Assembly: GCA_030530785.1 (NCBI GenBank)
Contig: JAUMUJ010000022.1
Coordinates: 1-35,519, forward strand
Source of the DNA: Moraxella sp.
GTDB lineage: Bacteria; Pseudomonadota; Gammaproteobacteria; Pseudomonadales; Moraxellaceae
DNA: 35,519 bases
Direction: 5' to 3'
Under the pieces are notes generated by a model. It did no database searches. It was not told the DNA's origin and saw only the letters and a list, made by a program, of their open reading frames with translations. The translations under genes were made by a program, and so were the position numbers. Every line of letters starts with the position of its first letter. Within the stretch, counting starts at the first letter, position 1. Positions 17,713 through 32,477 of this stretch are shown here, piece after piece.

Positions 17713-17752
17713 GACAAAAATTTTATGATTGATTGTTTTACAAGGAAATTTT

Positions 17753-18241
17753 ATGCAAAGAACTGCATCTGCAGGCTACCTGATGAACCACATTGCTCGT
17801 CAATTCGCCATTTTGTTAAACGAAGGGTTAAGCCCCTTGGGGGTGTCGCCCGCCCAATTCCCCATTTTGCTTACCCTGTGGGAAAAAGACGGATTGAGCC
17901 AAAACGAGCTGGTAGAAATTGCCGATTTAAAGCAAGCGACCATTGCCAACACGCTTTCCCGCATGGAAAGGGACGGCTTGATTGTGCGAGAACCGCACCC
18001 AACGGACGCACGTATTCGCCTGATTATGCTGACCGACCACGCCAAAGCCCTGCAAGAGCAAGCCACCGCCATTGCCCAAAAAATCAACCAAACCGCCCTG
18101 TCAGTACTGACGGACGATGAGCAAGTAGCGTTTATCCAAATGATGAATAAAGTTGTGGCACAGCAGAAAGTGATGATAAAAAATAAATCCAATCAACCCA
18201 TCAAAAACATCACTGATTTGGGTTTTTGTACACACTTTTAA
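17753..18241 (+). CDS. MarR-family transcriptional regulator
   Basis: 162 aa from ATG 17753 (AAGGAAA upstream), a dimeric winged-helix repressor that normally releases DNA on binding a phenolic or other small ligand, or on oxidation. The DNA-binding core is visible as PAQFPILLTLWEKDGLSQNELVE, then the recognition helix DLKQATIANTLSRMERDGL and the wing DARIRLIMLTDHAK. It probably represses itself and the divergent membrane gene through three palindromes in the shared promoter region. The broken ydhR-like gene follows 72 nt downstream on the same strand and may be in the same unit. Confidence 0.93.
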   Translation: MQRTASAGYLMNHIARQFAILLNEGLSPLGVSPAQFPILLTLWEKDGLSQNELVEIADLKQATIANTLSRMERDGLIVREPHPTDARIRLIMLTDHAKALQEQATAIAQKINQTALSVLTDDEQVAFIQMMNKVVAQQKVMIKNKSNQPIKNITDLGFCTHF

Positions 18242-27005: not shown

Positions 27006-27044
27006 AAAACACCCGCCCACCTGTGAGATAAGCGGTGTTTTTTT
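27004..27044. terminator. Bidirectional terminator between the zinc-ribbon gene and ohr
   Basis: AACACC-C-GC and GC-GGTGTT form a stem with one bulged C, flanked by an A run on the left and a T run on the right. It fills the gap between two convergent genes. Confidence 0.75.
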
Positions 27045-27045
27045 A

Positions 27046-27477
27046 TTATAAATCAAAGGTTTGAATAACATTCACGTGCAAACGTACGTCCACATTGCCA
27101 CGCACAGCATTAGAATACGGACACACAGCGTGAGCCTTTTCAATCAAGGTTTTGGCTTCGTCTTGGGTTAAGCCTTTGACAGTAATAGTAATATCCAAAT
27201 CCAAGCCAAATGCACCGTCTGGCTTTTGACCGATACCGACCGCCACTGTGGTGCTAGACTGCTCAGGCTTAATACCCAAACTTGGAGCAACGTGGTTCAT
27301 CGCACTGTCAAAGCAAGCGGCATAGCCCATCGCAAAAAGCTGTTCTGGGTTTGTGCCAACTTTACCGCTGTCATTTTGAAAGCCAACCAAATCAAAGCCG
27401 ATAGAGCCGTCATCTACTTGGGTGCGACCATCTCTCCCACCTGTGGCGGTGGCTGAGGTGTGATAAAAAATTTTCAT
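27046..27477 (-). CDS. ohr: Organic hydroperoxide resistance protein Ohr
   Basis: Thiol peroxidase that reduces organic hydroperoxides, usually recharged by lipoylated proteins. 143 aa. OsmC/Ohr fold with the two catalytic cysteines in YAACFDSA (Cys55) and AHAVCPYSN (Cys119), the Arg18 of GGRDGR and Glu45 of GTNPEQLFA; these match Ohr rather than OsmC. AAGGAG lies before the ATG. It is the last gene of a five-gene minus-strand run that starts with the ferritin-like gene and is probably under OhrR control from a promoter more than 2.5 kb upstream, since the 40-nt gap before it holds no operator. Confidence 0.97.
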   Translation of the reverse strand: MKIFYHTSATATGGRDGRTQVDDGSIGFDLVGFQNDSGKVGTNPEQLFAMGYAACFDSAMNHVAPSLGIKPEQSSTTVAVGIGQKPDGAFGLDLDITITVKGLTQDEAKTLIEKAHAVCPYSNAVRGNVDVRLHVNVIQTFDL

Positions 27478-27517
27478 AAAATTGCTCCTTAAAAGCAGTT
27501 TAAAAAATAATGATTAA

Positions 27518-28135
27518 TTAAAATTTACCCATATCCAACACCAACGCTTTTTCGTTGGCTTTTTGGTAGGCAGGGTGATTGTCCACTTGCACAAGATAGC
27601 GAGCGATGTTTGGGTAGTTTACCATGTCCACAAAATTTTGACCCCACTGCAAAGGAAAGCACAAGGCAAAATCCGCCCCTGTCAGCTCATCGCCCACAAT
27701 CCACGTTTTGTCAGACAGTGTTTGTTCTACATGGTCAAAATAAAGCGGGGTTTGTGTTTTTGCATAATCGCCAAACACCCCCAAATCAGAGCGACCAGCC
27801 AACATACCAAGCAAATTTGCCGAAAACATGGACGCTGACACCGCAAGCCAATATTGATACATACTATACTCATCAGTTTGGCGAGCAGGCTCAAATCTGC
27901 CTTGCCCATAGCGGTCAAGCAAATGCAAAATGATGGCATTACCTTCGGCAAGTAGTACATCACCATCTTGTAGCACAGGAGCTTTACCCAAAGGGTGTTG
28001 GGCTTTTAATGCACTTGGGGCAAAGCCTGTCTCTTCACGATGATAAATCTTCAACTCATAATCCAACCCCAACGCTTCTAGTAGCCAAACAATACGATGT
28101 GAACATGAGTTATTTAGATAATGCAAAGTAATCAT
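27518..28135 (-). CDS. Glutathione S-transferase family protein
   Basis: 205 aa cytosolic GST fold. The N-terminal thioredoxin-like domain has NSCSHRIVWLLEALGLDYEL, the cis-Pro segment LGKAPVLQDGD and the glutathione-binding LAEGNAIILHLLDRYG. The alpha-helical C-terminal domain has LTGADFALCFPLQW with the conserved Asp of the N-capping box. The catalytic residue is probably Ser/Cys near residues 10-12 (NNSCSH). Its place next to ohr suggests clearing peroxide-derived electrophiles, which is inference. GGGAG before the ATG gives a strong ribosome site; 42-nt gap to the nitroreductase gene. Confidence 0.92.
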   Translation of the reverse strand: MITLHYLNNSCSHRIVWLLEALGLDYELKIYHREETGFAPSALKAQHPLGKAPVLQDGDVLLAEGNAIILHLLDRYGQGRFEPARQTDEYSMYQYWLAVSASMFSANLLGMLAGRSDLGVFGDYAKTQTPLYFDHVEQTLSDKTWIVGDELTGADFALCFPLQWGQNFVDMVNYPNIARYLVQVDNHPAYQKANEKALVLDMGKF

Positions 28136-28177
28136 GACATTTCTCCCTTAAAATAAACATTCAGCACTGACTCACAC

Positions 28178-28864
28178 TTACCAATGCAACACAGCACTCT
28201 CCCCCACAGGCACACGCCCCAGATGATGTTTGTTTTGCATGGCACCCCAATCAGGGTGTCCAAATGAGATGCCGTGTAATAGCTTATATTCTTTTGAAAT
28301 GCCAAGCTCTTCACGAATGTCATCGGCAAACATGGCAAGGGCAAGCTGTGGAATGCCACCAAAGCCACGAGCGGTCAAGGACAACAAAAAGGTCTGTGAA
28401 TACATACCGACATCAGAGGCAATATTAACATCATGATTATCAATGCTTGGCATGAACAAAAATGCCATGTGCGGTGCTCCGTAACCATCAATATTGTCAT
28501 CATACACCACTTGACGACCCGCCTTATCTTCACGAGCAATACCATAACTTGTGGTAAAAACATGGGCATATTGGTTACGCCAGCGTGGCTCATAATCGCC
28601 TTTGTATTTTTCTTGGTTAAATTCAAAATCAGCAGTATTACGACCTTCGCTAAACGTCTTTTTAAAGCGTGCTTTTAGGCGTGCCAATGTCTCACCTGAT
28701 GCCACATGAACCAGCCACGGCTGGGTGTTGCAAGCCGATGGGGCATTTTGGGCATCAGCAAGGATTTGCTTGATTTCAACTTCACTCATCGGTGTCGGTA
28801 AAAATTTGCGAATAGACTGACGAGTGCGGACGGTTGTTTCAAAATCTAAGATTGGGGCGGTCAT
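28178..28864 (-). CDS. Nitroreductase-family flavoenzyme
   Basis: 228 aa, FMN-dependent oxidoreductase of the nitroreductase superfamily. The FMN site is seen in RTRQSIRKF near the N terminus and in NAPSACNTQPW; a second FMN segment is RGFGGIPQLAL. A C-terminal GISFGHPDW motif, frequent in this group, is present. Likely substrates are quinones, nitro compounds or other electrophiles. AGGAG precedes the ATG. It lies in the middle of the OhrR-linked run, with short gaps of 42 and 44 nt on either side. Confidence 0.93.
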   Translation of the reverse strand: MTAPILDFETTVRTRQSIRKFLPTPMSEVEIKQILADAQNAPSACNTQPWLVHVASGETLARLKARFKKTFSEGRNTADFEFNQEKYKGDYEPRWRNQYAHVFTTSYGIAREDKAGRQVVYDDNIDGYGAPHMAFLFMPSIDNHDVNIASDVGMYSQTFLLSLTARGFGGIPQLALAMFADDIREELGISKEYKLLHGISFGHPDWGAMQNKHHLGRVPVGESAVLHW

Positions 28865-28908
28865 GTGTACTCCTAGTGGCTTGGAATTTATATTTGTTAA
28901 AAGTCAAT

Positions 28909-29463
28909 TTACAAACTTTGAATCTGTTTGATTAAGCGGTCGGCATGGTCATCGGCTTTGGCTTGCACTTGAACTAAATCGTCTGCCGAGCTTACATTTG
29001 GAATATAAATCATGCCACTGCTATGCACGGGGGTTTGCCACACCAAGCCTGCAAATTTTGCCGTGTCTTTGAGCGGGGCCAACAAATCATCAAGATGATG
29101 AAACAGCTCACCATTGTAACCGTCTTCTGCACCACCCACGGTGTACGAAAAAATCACTTTTTTACCGTGCAGTTTATCACCACCTGCGCCATAGGCAAAA
29201 CCATAGGCGAACACATCATCAAAATAGCGTTTTAAAATGGCAGGAATGCTGTACCAGTACATCGGGTATTGAAAAACAATCACGTCCGCCTGCTCCAACG
29301 CCGACTGTTCGGTGGCAACATCAATCGCTTGGTTGCCATAAAGCCCCGCCAAATCACGAATTTGCACATTGCCAATTTCGCTCTCTAAGCGCTTTAAAAT
29401 GCGGGCATTGGCGTTTGAGTAAGATAAGTTACCATGACCTGAGATGACTAATACATTTTTCAT
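28909..29463 (-). CDS. Flavodoxin-fold NAD(P)H oxidoreductase (quinone reductase type)
   Basis: 184 aa from ATG 29463, with AAGAGAG upstream; the 29505 start would add 14 residues with no ribosome site. Features of the NQO1/KefF/MdaB group are the N-terminal VLVISGHGNLSYSNANARIL, the FQYPMYWYSIPAILKRYFDDV segment and the following FAYGFAYG. It would reduce quinones by two electrons and so limit radical formation, which fits the peroxide-defence context. It lies 46 nt after the ferritin-like gene. Confidence 0.93.
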   Translation of the reverse strand: MKNVLVISGHGNLSYSNANARILKRLESEIGNVQIRDLAGLYGNQAIDVATEQSALEQADVIVFQYPMYWYSIPAILKRYFDDVFAYGFAYGAGGDKLHGKKVIFSYTVGGAEDGYNGELFHHLDDLLAPLKDTAKFAGLVWQTPVHSSGMIYIPNVSSADDLVQVQAKADDHADRLIKQIQSL

Positions 29464-29509
29464 TGCTATACTCTCTTCGTTGATGGATAAATGCGTTTTT
29501 ATCAAGTAA

Positions 29510-29962
29510 TCACATTCTTTTTGATAAATACAAGGGTTCGCCTAATTTTTCTAGCAAATTTAGCTCTTGTTCTAGCCACGCCAAATGCTCTTCTTCATCT
29601 GCTAAAATTTCTTCAATCAAAATGCGGGTGGTTGCATCATGCTCAGCTGTGGCAATCTCCACCCATTGGTTAATGCCGGTGCGAGCATTCTTTTGTAGCT
29701 CATAATCGTTTTGCAAGGCTTCACGCAAATTTGTGCCGATGTTGGGCTGTTTGACTGTGAAGCGAATCTCCCCGCCCAAATCCAGCAGGCGATTTTGTAA
29801 TTTGATAATCGTCTCTGGCTCATCGGCGATTTTGTCTTCCATTTCGCTGGCAAGCAGGTTCGCCCCTTCACTTGCGATGATGGCAACATGGCTACGATGC
29901 TGAATGCTTGCCGACCAATAAATCGCCAACATCTCGTTTAATAACGCATGGATTTTGTTCAT
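29510..29962 (-). CDS. Bacterioferritin-like protein with altered ferroxidase site
   Basis: 150 aa four-helix ferritin-like protein. The C-terminal half aligns without gaps to bacterioferritin (PNIGTNLREALQND, then ILADEEEHLAWLEQELNLLEKLG). Against E. coli Bfr, from memory, Glu18, Glu51, Glu127 and His130 have counterparts (Glu10, Glu48, Glu123, His126). However, His54 becomes Thr51, Glu94 becomes Gln90 and the haem-ligand Met52 becomes Pro49. It may bind iron differently, lack ferroxidase activity, or pair with a normal Bfr subunit. It is the first gene after the OhrR-type promoter module at 30001-30038; GGAG precedes its ATG. Confidence 0.78.
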   Translation of the reverse strand: MNKIHALLNEMLAIYWSASIQHRSHVAIIASEGANLLASEMEDKIADEPETIIKLQNRLLDLGGEIRFTVKQPNIGTNLREALQNDYELQKNARTGINQWVEIATAEHDATTRILIEEILADEEEHLAWLEQELNLLEKLGEPLYLSKRM

Positions 29963-30000
29963 GACTTACTCCAATTGGGTTAAGTTGTGTTGTTGGGATT

Positions 30001-30038
30001 ATTATAGTATAAAATTAAATTGTGTACAATATATTTTT
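30001..30038 (-). promoter_or_regulatory. Promoter with OhrR-type operator, before the ferritin-like gene
   Basis: On the minus strand TTGTAC (30024-30029) and TATAAT (30001-30006) are 17 bp apart. The -35 and spacer lie inside an AT-rich element whose core is ATTGT-GT-ACAAT (30019-30030), resembling known OhrR operators built from AATTAAATTGT repeats. It is 39 nt upstream of the ferritin-like ATG and is nearly identical to the module before ohrR. Confidence 0.8.
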
Positions 30039-30070
30039 GTAAAATTTATCTAAAATACCAAAAATAAATG

Positions 30071-30487
30071 CTAACCATTTAATTTTAAAACAATTTTTTG
30101 CAAACTTACCACTTCATCATCGGACAGATTGAGACACTCTGCCATTTTTTTGGGAATGTCCACTGCTTGGTTTTTTAACGCTTGCCCCTGTTCGGTGAGC
30201 GTAATGATGACGGTGCGTTCGTCCGTTTGACTTCTAGTGCGGGCGATTAACTCTTTACTTTGTAAGCGTTTTAAAAGCGGGGTTAAAGTACCGCTATCAA
30301 GGTGCAATTTATCGCCAATCTCGCCCACGCTTTGAGAACCAAACTCCCACAGCACCAGCATTACCAAGTATTGCGGATAGGTCAAATCAAGCTCTCGTAA
30401 CAACGGCGTATAACGGCGCGTGATTTCTTTGGAGATGGCATACAGCGGAAAACACAGCTGATTGCCCAGTTTTAGTTGGTCATACAT
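30071..30487 (-). CDS. ohrR: Organic peroxide-sensing repressor OhrR (MarR family)
   Basis: 138-aa winged-helix regulator. The sensing cysteine is Cys12 in the OhrR signature NQLCFPLYA, and the conserved Tyr residues that hold its thiolate are present. A second Cys at 118 (MAECLNLSDDE) sits where the 2-Cys type (as in Xanthomonas) has its partner, so oxidation to an intersubunit disulfide is likely. Recognition helix LHLDSGTLTPLLKRLQSKELI and wing RSQTDERTVIITLT are clear. GGAAAA lies upstream of the ATG. It has its own promoter/operator module at 30589-30626 and should repress itself and the downstream five-gene run. Confidence 0.96.
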   Translation of the reverse strand: MYDQLKLGNQLCFPLYAISKEITRRYTPLLRELDLTYPQYLVMLVLWEFGSQSVGEIGDKLHLDSGTLTPLLKRLQSKELIARTRSQTDERTVIITLTEQGQALKNQAVDIPKKMAECLNLSDDEVVSLQKIVLKLNG

Positions 30488-30588
30488 GATTGATTTTCCA
30501 AAAAAATTTGGGCAGATAATAGCACAAAATTACATGACACACAACCAAAATGACCCCACACACAGACCGATTTGTCTTAATTTATCAT

Positions 30589-30626
30589 ATTACAGTGTAA
30601 AATTAAATTGTGTTCAATATATTTTT
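30589..30626 (-). promoter_or_regulatory. Promoter with OhrR-type operator, before ohrR
   Basis: On the minus strand TTGAAC (30612-30617) and TGTAAT (30589-30594) are 17 bp apart, with core ATTGT-GT-TCAAT. It matches the 30001-30038 module at 35 of 38 positions, 28 of 29 within the operator part. Its predicted leader to the ohrR ATG is about 95 nt. Confidence 0.8.
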
Positions 30627-30678: not shown

Positions 30679-31371
30679 TCAATCTTTTAAAATAAAATCC
30701 ACCGCCATTTGGGCATGAAGTTTGGCGGTATCAAACATCAAAATATCCAAGTCGTTTTGATTGACAAGAAGCCCAATCTCAGTACAGCCCAATATCACAG
30801 CATCCACCCCTTGTGATTTTAAGTCATTGATGACATTAAGGTAAATCCGCTTTGATGCTTCACAAACCTTACCCACACACAGCTCATCAAAGATAATGCG
30901 ATGAATGTCGTCTTGGTCTTTGGCGTTGGGGACAAGGCTTTGAATGCCGTATTTTGCCAAGCCGTCCTGATAAAAACTCTCGCTCATCACAAACTTAGTG
31001 CCAAGCAATGCCACTTTATGGATATTTTGGGCGATAATGGCATGGGCGGTGGCGTCCACAATGTGCAAAAACGGCACACAAATGCCCGCTTTAATGACGG
31101 GAGCAACCTTGTGCATGGTGTTGGTCGCCAGCAAAATCCCGTCTGCCCCAATCTGCTCCAACCTTTGAGCGATGTTTGTAAGCAACTCGCCTGCGGTCTG
31201 CCAGTCGTTTTGGCGTTGGCATTGGACAATTGGCTCAAAATCCACACTATACACAATCAAAGGAGCGGTCGTGTTCGCTCCCTTTGCCTGATTGACAGCT
31301 TGATTAATCTCATTATAATAAGTTGCGGTGCTTGCAGGCGACATACCGCCAATTACTCCCAATGTTTTCAT
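30679..31371 (-). CDS. Aspartate/glutamate racemase family protein
   Basis: 230 aa from ATG 31371, chosen because MKTLGVIGGMSPASTATYYN is the family N terminus; the upstream extension to 31419 is not typical. Both catalytic cysteine regions should be checked: the second is clear (VILGCTEIGLLV), while the first, usually NT-x-H preceded by a Cys or Thr, reads LLATNTMHKV. That Thr in place of Cys is found in YgeA-type broad-specificity racemases. It probably makes D-amino acids for the wall or signalling. It ends upstream of the ohrR control region. Confidence 0.9.
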   Translation of the reverse strand: MKTLGVIGGMSPASTATYYNEINQAVNQAKGANTTAPLIVYSVDFEPIVQCQRQNDWQTAGELLTNIAQRLEQIGADGILLATNTMHKVAPVIKAGICVPFLHIVDATAHAIIAQNIHKVALLGTKFVMSESFYQDGLAKYGIQSLVPNAKDQDDIHRIIFDELCVGKVCEASKRIYLNVINDLKSQGVDAVILGCTEIGLLVNQNDLDILMFDTAKLHAQMAVDFILKD

Positions 31372-31532: not shown

Positions 31533-31994
31533 TCAGTCGTACACTTCCATCGCTCTTTGAAAGGCCGACCACGCTCTTGGACCACCCACATAAAACGCCA
31601 AATGCGTAATCAGCTCTGACATCTCTTGTTTGGTTACGCCATATTCTTTGGCACGCTCCATTTGAAATTTTAACTGCTCAAAGTCCCCATGTGCCATCAT
31701 TGCCGAAATGGTAATCATGGAACGCTCTCTTAGGGGTAACTCTTGCTGGCGAGACCAAATTTGACCATACACCAAATTATCGTTAATGTCAGCAAATTGT
31801 GGTGCAAATGCCCCCAATCTTTCTTGACCGATGGTTACTTGGGTGGGAGCTTGGGAAGCTAGGCGGTTTGGAGCTGTGTTAAAAACAGATGCGGGCGTTG
31901 GTGCTTGATTGGTTTGCACCTGACTGGTGCGGGCATGAGCCTGATGAAACAACGCACAGCCAACAAGGCTTGTGATTAAAATCAATTTTTTCAC
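31533..31994 (-). CDS. Exported carboxymuconolactone decarboxylase-like protein
   Basis: 153 aa, GTG start (31992-31994) supported by AGGAG. A signal peptide (MKKLILITSLVGCALFHQAHA) and a low-complexity Thr/Gln/Ala segment lead to a CMD domain (about 60-150) with LPLRERSMITISAMMAHG and THLAFYVGGPRAWSAF. It lacks the CxxC of AhpD, so peroxidase activity is unlikely; it resembles gamma-CMD, but a periplasmic location points to another role. It is divergent from an HxlR regulator with 123 nt between them, a pairing often seen for this family. Confidence 0.85.
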   Translation of the reverse strand: MKKLILITSLVGCALFHQAHARTSQVQTNQAPTPASVFNTAPNRLASQAPTQVTIGQERLGAFAPQFADINDNLVYGQIWSRQQELPLRERSMITISAMMAHGDFEQLKFQMERAKEYGVTKQEMSELITHLAFYVGGPRAWSAFQRAMEVYD

Positions 31995-32056
31995 AAAAAT
32001 CTCCTAGATGATAAAAACAAAATCAGTATAATACAAAAAATTCCCACAAAAAATAC

Positions 32057-32090
32057 GTTACCCAAAAGTCTGATGGGTACACTTAGGTAA
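32057..32090. promoter_or_regulatory. Candidate HxlR operator
   Basis: In the divergent gap, GTTACCC (32057-32063) faces GGGTAC (32075-32080), and TTACC faces GGTAA (32086-32090). HxlR-family operators often use such TTAC/GTAA half-sites. The match is imperfect. Confidence 0.4.
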
Positions 32091-32117
32091 TTTTTTAATA
32101 AAAACATCAGGTTAAGC

Positions 32118-32477
32118 ATGAAAAAAATGTCAGCCATTGATTTGGCAATGAAGCTTATCGGCGGTAAATATAAGTGTTTGATTTTATATCATTTGCATAC
32201 GGGAGATAAACGCCCCCGTGATTTATTGCGACTTATCGCAGGCATCAGCCAAAAGGTACTCACCGAACAACTACGCCAACTTGAAGCTGATGGTCTCATT
32301 GAACGGCACATCTACGCCGAAGTGCCACCACGAGTGGAATACCGCTTGACCAATGATGGAGCATTGCTAGAACCTGCTCTTAGAATGCTGTGCCAATGGA
32401 GCAAAGACTACGACAGTCGGCACGGCAGATGCATACAAATACACTTAAACAACACAGAACAACGAAAAGCCACCTAA
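32118..32477 (+). CDS. HxlR-family transcriptional regulator
   Basis: 119-aa winged-helix protein. It has the family start (IDLAMKLIGGKYKCLILYHL), then the helix-turn-helix (DLLRLIAGISQKVLTEQLRQLEADGLI) and wing (PPRVEYRLTNDG), typical for HxlR. Cys20 near the N terminus occupies the place of the redox-sensing cysteine in HypR/YodB-type members, so it may respond to electrophiles or disulfide stress; that is inference. It probably controls the divergent CMD-like gene and itself. Its stop codon lies inside the terminator stem. Confidence 0.92.
   Translation: MKKMSAIDLAMKLIGGKYKCLILYHLHTGDKRPRDLLRLIAGISQKVLTEQLRQLEADGLIERHIYAEVPPRVEYRLTNDGALLEPALRMLCQWSKDYDSRHGRCIQIHLNNTEQRKAT

Follow-up and report, generated by a model that had tools for sequence, protein, structure and literature searches.

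A stretch of 35,519 nucleotides from Moraxella sp. (assembly GCA_030530785.1, contig JAUMUJ010000022.1; hereafter the window) carries on its minus strand a run of six genes that begins with ohrR, encoding a MarR-family repressor, and ends with ohr, encoding an organic hydroperoxide reductase. We consider it likely, with a probability of about 0.75, that this run is an OhrR-repressed operon for defence against organic peroxides and electrophiles, which includes an atypical bacterioferritin-like protein. The evidence comes from two exact copies of one putative operator, from the recurrence of the ferritin-like gene upstream of ohr in Moraxellaceae and Neisseria, and from the conserved loss of metal ligands in a protein that is under purifying selection. 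The protein itself is best read as a bacterioferritin-like member of a predicted OhrR-repressed operon, with a chemistry that is unproven.

Organization of the locus and its operators

The features of the locus, from upstream of ohrR to downstream of ohr, are the following.

30599..30618, minus strand: putative distal OhrR operator, identical to the core and located 111 nt before the ohrR ATG
30526..30545, minus strand: putative proximal promoter of ohrR, which aligns with its counterpart in Moraxella genome G001 and contains a decayed operator box differing from the core at 6 positions
30071..30487, minus strand: ohrR, MarR-family repressor of the OhrR type, with Cys12 and Cys118
30011..30030, minus strand: putative OhrR operator of the ferritin-like gene; it overlaps a promoter of sigma-70 type whose second hexamer, TATAAT, ends at 30001
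29510..29962, minus strand: ferritin-like gene, bacterioferritin-like protein of 150 aa in which the haem Met and three of six ferroxidase ligands are missing and the redox Tyr is replaced by His
28909..29463, minus strand: KefF-like gene, flavodoxin-fold NAD(P)H/quinone oxidoreductase, with its ATG at 29463 and an in-frame TTG at 29505 as alternative start
28178..28864, minus strand: nitroreductase-family gene, whose relatives in genomes G017 and G021 each have their own putative OhrR operator
27518..28135, minus strand: glutathione S-transferase (GST)-family gene, whose Neisseria counterparts, within the ohr-linked ferritin loci of G404 and G369, are 63-65% identical to it
27046..27477, minus strand: ohr, organic hydroperoxide reductase, with Cys55 and Cys119
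27013..27035, minus strand: terminator-like stem-loop with a T-run, 3' of ohr

Recomputed coordinates and gap lengths (108, 46, 44, 42 and 40 nt from ohrR to ohr) agree with a preliminary description of this DNA, as do the gene families, through profile matches to MarR, Ferritin PF00210, Flavodoxin_2, Nitroreductase, GST_N/GST_C and OsmC/TIGR03561. Inspection of the sequence reveals purine-rich runs resembling ribosome-binding sites before the starts of the ferritin-like, KefF-like, nitroreductase, GST and ohr genes. A terminator scan of the region found no terminator-like site in the gaps between the genes and one weak site within the nitroreductase gene; since it returned 10 sites in all versus 5.0 (sd 2.4) in shuffles, the stem-loop after ohr is only suggestive. 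The earlier proposal that ohr is the last gene of a transcript of about 2.9 kb is backed by sequence and comparison, with the transcript now predicted to span about 3 kb and to start before the ferritin-like gene.

Both window operators share ATTGNACACAATTTAATTTT exactly, which contains the core AATT-N-AATT, and the two elements differ in one base over 26 bp. In the passages available, the published OhrR box of Bacillus and Agrobacterium is TACAATTNAATTGTA, with the same core AATT-N-AATT (PMC6034001, PMC3469484); CACAATTTAATTTTA differs from this box in two of its 14 fixed bases. The window sites have the properties of an OhrR operator, namely an AT-rich inverted repeat around this core, but they are not located directly before ohr. 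When the window was searched at up to three mismatches only these two elements were retrieved (mean of 0.00 in 100 shuffles), no similar element being present in the four inner gaps of the run. In the whole host genome (57 contigs totalling 1.91 Mb, completeness 86.92%) the 20-base core at up to two mismatches has two matches, both exact; the reversed-pattern control gave two matches at up to two mismatches, their mismatch level not being shown. These searches bear out the earlier claim that operator-like elements precede only ohrR and the ferritin-like gene and, since the host genome has just these two sites, the predicted OhrR regulon is the window locus alone. The element before ohrR is confirmed, with the refinement that the exact copy lies 111 nt from the ATG and that a decayed second box stands nearer. 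This distal copy looks like the ferritin-like/ohr promoters, and a rearrangement may have left it there as a duplicate.

OhrR belongs to the MarR winged-helix family (PF01047, 62.4 bits versus a cut-off of 24.6), its top Pfam match being the related PF22381 with 80.2 bits. Cys12 and Cys118 fit the spacing of about 105 residues between sensor and partner cysteines, and both are kept in eight of nine OhrR sequences compared. Ohr matches TIGR03561 with 156.1 bits (cut-off 88.85) and has the conserved Cys55 and Cys119, while the KefF-like protein matches Flavodoxin_2, the nearest NCBIfam model being KefF with a score under its cut-off.

According to the available passages on Chromobacterium violaceum, OhrR has a sensor Cys21 and a partner Cys126, operators are found at both promoters, and ohrR and ohrA share a bicistronic transcript (PMC3469484). 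The C. violaceum and Acinetobacter baumannii ohrR-ohr systems resemble what is predicted for the window locus in that, as described in those parts of the sources, the OhrR repressor binds the ohr promoter region (PMC3469484, PMC8002998). Unlike in these two species, four genes separate ohrR from ohr in the window, and the putative main operator is placed before the ferritin-like gene. In the A. baumannii text the word "ferritin" does not occur (PMC8002998), and searches of the open-licence literature yielded no account of such an extended OhrR operon.

The ferritin-like protein

The ferritin-like protein contains the ferritin domain (PF00210, 74.9 bits versus a cut-off of 24.5) and aligns with Bfr over the full length; its top solved relatives are bacterioferritins (E 2.8e-18), and a Dps-like chain scores far lower. 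Against the bfr equivalog TIGR00754 it reaches 64.9 bits, with a cut-off of 125.55. At the ferroxidase positions E18, E51, H54, E94, E127 and H130, in what we take to be the E. coli Bfr numbering (consistent with the alignments and with the passages cited here), all six intact close relatives carry Y, E, T, Q, E and H, and the position of the haem Met52 is Pro49 in all six. A divergent ferritin-like protein of Neisseria genome G369 has L, E, F, S, E and D at the six ligand sites, with Met kept at the haem site. The position of Tyr-25 is occupied by a new His (His22) in all seven ohr-linked ferritins examined, whereas each of the 42 other proteins of the Bfr family has Tyr, and the equivalents of E51 and E127 (E48 and E123) are conserved in the same seven. 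All six ligands are present in 22 of the 42 aligned Bfr-family proteins (two of these with the haem Met), and in the remaining 20 some ligands are gone and the haem Met is present, a division similar to that of two-subunit bacterioferritins; the other weak ferritin matches were covered by this alignment alone.

In the passages available on E. coli Bfr, Tyr-25 supplies electrons to the ferroxidase centre, and its loss consequently argues against standard mineralisation. The preliminary description had this protein storing iron, which is not supported, the haem Met, three of the six ferroxidase ligands and the Tyr-25 equivalent being absent from all six intact close relatives. In fact, an ordinary iron-storage bacterioferritin was ruled out by the lost ligands and by the score below the bfr equivalog cut-off. 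The gene is nevertheless constrained, given the low dN/dS of about 0.04-0.16 in 14 of 15 pairs (dN 0.03-0.21, dS 0.74-2.11, one pair being saturated), values which are rough because many dS exceed 1. The same ratios ruled out a decaying pseudogene in the window genome. Accordingly, a ferritin-fold protein seemingly unfit for normal ferritin chemistry is yet kept by selection.

Two-subunit bacterioferritins, such as Bfr1/Bfr2 of Magnetospirillum and the pair found in Neisseria and Moraxella, resemble the window protein in having the Bfr fold and PF00210 scores above the cut-off, and they offer a precedent for subunits that lose haem or ferroxidase residues, as far as the available text goes (PMC6529640). 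Unlike these, the window protein has neither a complete ferroxidase centre nor the haem Met, carries His in place of Tyr, is only about 30% identical to either ordinary Bfr subunit, and is tied to ohr and a putative OhrR operator. It is possible, although unlikely, that the protein, itself inert towards metals, is a third subunit of a mixed Bfr shell, which it joins under peroxide stress and whose iron uptake or release it then alters. In favour of such an arrangement, two Bfr genes are present in all 19 Moraxella and Neisseria loci that were aligned (from part of the genomes searched), one with six ligands and no haem Met and the other having the haem Met together with a disrupted ferroxidase site; solved relatives include entries with two distinct ferritin-type chains (9h1u, 9iig and 9bts), and the accessible passages on Magnetospirillum describe mixed shells of functionally distinct Bfr subunits (PMC6529640). 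The low identity to either subunit and the location of the gene with ohr, not beside the Bfr genes, speak against it, and the E51/E127 equivalents with His22 in all seven ohr-linked ferritins suggest a conserved site.

A bolder proposal, which we put forward with considerable doubt, is that the ohr-linked ferritins might constitute a separate ferritin-fold class for organic-peroxide defence, with the ferroxidase centre rebuilt around E48, E123 and His22. This centre would bind Fe2+ or another metal and either react with organic hydroperoxides or keep iron from reaching them, and the proteins would pass between Moraxella and Neisseria together with ohr, as an OhrR-controlled module. Dps and MrgA are ferritin-fold proteins induced by peroxide under OxyR or PerR which limit iron-driven damage. 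Unlike them, the window protein is linked to another regulator and another class of peroxide, and aligns over the length of Bfr.

Related loci in Moraxellaceae and Neisseria

Close relatives of the ferritin-like protein occur in 4 of the 348 Moraxellaceae genomes searched (E <= 1e-20) and in 4 of the 46 Neisseria genomes, and in all eight loci the gene is located upstream of ohr on the same strand (adjacent to it in six), with an operator of 0-2 mismatches in front. Again at E <= 1e-20, 398 genomes of the phylum and 369 of the class yielded the window's own copy only, a limit that would miss divergence of the G369 kind; a protein search of 72,556 plasmids found nothing, and a contig scan with two short peptide patterns, which is not exhaustive, gave three loci.

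The genes that accompany the ferritin-like gene and ohr vary. In G009 the order is ohrR, a YiiD-type thioesterase, operator, ferritin-like gene and ohr, and in G185, from another Moraxellaceae genus, a GST-family protein takes the place of the thioesterase. G017 has ohrR, operator, nitroreductase, a two-mismatch operator, ferritin-like gene, an HpcH/HpaI aldolase, operator and ohr, and G001, G002 and G007 have ohrR, operator and ohr. Among the Neisseria, G378 shows ohrR, operator, ferritin-like gene and ohr, whereas two other loci, around which ohrR was looked for within 12 kb, read GST (65% identical), two-mismatch operator, ferritin-like gene and ohr (G404, the GST being preceded by an operator-like site in opposite orientation) and two-mismatch operator, an eroded ferritin-like remnant and ohr (G400). 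Neisseria weixii (G361) has operator, an interrupted ferritin-like gene and ohr, with an interrupted ohrR beside a nitroreductase about 30 kb away. In its deposited genome both ohrR (L111 5286-5642) and the ferritin-like gene (L112 4400-4848) are frame-interrupted and ohr is intact, which would reflect either joint decay or sequencing error.

The most extended arrangement is that of Neisseria G369, in which a one-mismatch operator is followed by ohrR, ferritin-like gene, HpcH/HpaI aldolase, nitroreductase, a 117-aa protein (TfoX_N match below cut-off), GST, ohr, a second GST, a second nitroreductase and an NmrA-like gene, a run of about ten genes on one strand (L133 5083-11623), in which neighbouring genes are separated by 10-85 nt as far as the second GST. 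Identity to the window is 67% for ohrR, 46% for the nitroreductase, 63% for the GST and 87% for ohr; the ferritin-like protein, first found at E 5.9e-9, is 24-28% identical to the window's type. Judged from its gene content, this putative operon is an independent case in which most gene classes of the window locus come together. Since related loci again carry nitroreductases, GST-type proteins, a thioesterase and aldolases, the earlier suggestion that the operon clears secondary electrophiles is plausible.

The window ferritin-like protein shares 86-89% of its residues with both intact Neisseria copies. Its identity to the copies of other Moraxellaceae is 76-79%, and a quick tree splits it from these with a support of 0.89; in a larger quick tree it joins the Neisseria copies (support 0.999). 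Likewise, the window Ohr groups with that of Moraxella G001 (94% identical) and three Neisseria sequences (support 0.94), and the OhrR of Neisseria G378 is placed among Moraxella OhrRs (support 0.89). On this evidence the ferritin-like gene and ohr have probably been exchanged between Moraxella and Neisseria, in either direction. The G369 protein joins the other ohr-linked ferritins with a support of 0.94 on very long branches, so that its common descent with them is likely but not firm. Similar diaminobutyrate aminotransferase- and decarboxylase-like genes flank the ferritin-like/ohr pair in G009 (L044 7114-10141) and in N. weixii (L055 2744-5649); these flanking genes, whose order differs, perhaps mark a shared transfer site.

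Distribution of the operator

In a survey of 22 genomes of the genus Moraxella, 7 with a close ohrR (at least 67% identity) and 15 without, all eight exact operator matches and five of the six with one mismatch stand before ohrR, ohr, a nitroreductase or a ferritin-like gene. A site with 0-1 mismatch is present in 7 of 7 genomes having a close ohrR versus 1 of 15 lacking it (Fisher p = 4.7e-5, with relatedness ignored). The consensus of 21 sites with up to two mismatches reads ATTg.a.ACAATtTAATTTT followed by TAtAAT, 11 other stretches with 3-7 mismatches having been left out. G021 carries ohrR, ohr and a nitroreductase (90% identical) on separate contigs, three in all, with a one-mismatch operator for each gene. 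As read from these sites, the gene set is modular: genes bearing an operator are dispersed in some relatives and grouped anew in others. No operator precedes the two ohr copies of G004 or the ohr of G006, the best matches there having 6-7 mismatches, and neither genome has a close ohrR; these three genes and the shuffle mean of 0.00 ruled out the exact operator as a chance AT-rich motif.

The one-mismatch site of G010, a genome with no close ohrR, was dropped as probably due to chance; it lies 8 nt before an AMP-ligase-like gene. Two-mismatch sites in general were dropped on the same ground. Five genomes of the genus share the same operator-like 20-mer with two mismatches (G002:C4:432901, G005:C1:107491, G007:C1:112619, G011:C319:9888 and G018:C37:7078), of which G005, G011 and G018 are without a close ohrR. 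In the 46 Neisseria genomes, nine sites were found at up to one mismatch versus two in the reversed control; both exact sites precede the ferritin-like gene and, of the seven with one mismatch, one precedes the G404 GST and one the G369 ohrR.

Proposed mechanism and alternatives

We hypothesize that reduced OhrR, with Cys12 as sensor and Cys118 as partner, would occupy the operators overlapping the ohrR and ferritin-like promoters, and that organic hydroperoxides would oxidise the repressor, which is predicted to leave the DNA. A single transcript from the ferritin-like promoter would then encode the ferritin-like protein, the KefF-like quinone reductase, the nitroreductase, the GST and Ohr. 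Ohr would reduce the hydroperoxide, and the reductases and the GST would probably handle quinones and carbonyl products. The ferritin-like protein, which would not be a self-sufficient ferroxidase, would probably bind Fe2+ at its altered site or join ordinary Bfr shells, curbing iron-driven alkoxyl radicals.

Several observations weigh against this model. The window's exact gene order, whose conservation in relatives had been proposed as a check, recurs in none of the eight other ohr-linked ferritin loci and is unique among the nine, and the predicted co-regulation of the KefF-like gene has the window locus as its only example. Promoter-like matches in the region are no commoner than in shuffles (10 versus 10.8). 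At up to two mismatches the operator search of the genus is noisy (32 sites versus 21 in the reversed control), and five of the seven one-mismatch sites in Neisseria show none of these genes in their 3-kb loci. The window OhrR scores 174 bits against the Vibrio-named NCBIfam OhrR equivalog NF052638, below its cut-off of 200 (the second-best NCBIfam family reaching 49.4 bits). In addition, the OhrR of G001 is devoid of Cys118, and the nitroreductase homologue of that genome (48%) has no operator (four mismatches).

An improbable alternative is that the OhrR-like repressor mainly senses an electrophile, a quinone or sulfane sulfur, and that the operon is mainly electrophile-directed, as its reductases and GST-type proteins might suggest; the accessible part of one report presents MarR-type proteins as sulfane sulfur sensors (PMC11211675). 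Nevertheless, Ohr is the constant partner across loci, Cys12 and Cys118 fit the two-Cys OhrR type, and the operator is similar to published OhrR boxes. That the genes are chance neighbours or are each driven by a promoter of their own, with a functional link between ohrR and ohr only, would fit an exact order found in one genome and the nitroreductase or KefF-like homologues that some relatives have elsewhere, but is very improbable in view of the 40-46-nt gaps without an operator, of ohr lying downstream of the ferritin-like gene in nine of nine loci from two distant families, of the same gene classes strung behind one operator in G369 and of the operator retained by the lone nitroreductase of G021.

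OhrR circuits usually comprise the repressor and one peroxidase, and here the same putative operator fronts a small, shuffling gene set. What appears to be new, on the sequences compared, is the combination of an ohr-linked, ligand-poor ferritin type with a modular regulon. If the proposed OhrR-repressed operon is real, iron handling would be tied directly to organic-peroxide sensing, and the locus would be a compact test case for the assembly of a regulon and its passage between genera.

Other observations in the window

At 31533-32477, the gene of an HxlR-family regulator is divergent from one encoding a carboxymuconolactone-decarboxylase-like protein whose start resembles a signal peptide; the nearest NCBIfam models for the regulator are the RrpA/RrpB redox sensors, below cut-off. 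In G006, G007 and G021, HxlR genes also lie close to ohr or to homologues of the KefF-like gene. A second MarR-family gene (17729-18241) encodes a protein 34% identical to OhrR over part of its length, and has no OhrR-type operator nearby. A sigma-70 promoter with 12 of 12 consensus positions and a 16-nt spacing is located at 31292-31319, within and opposed to an Asp/Glu racemase gene.

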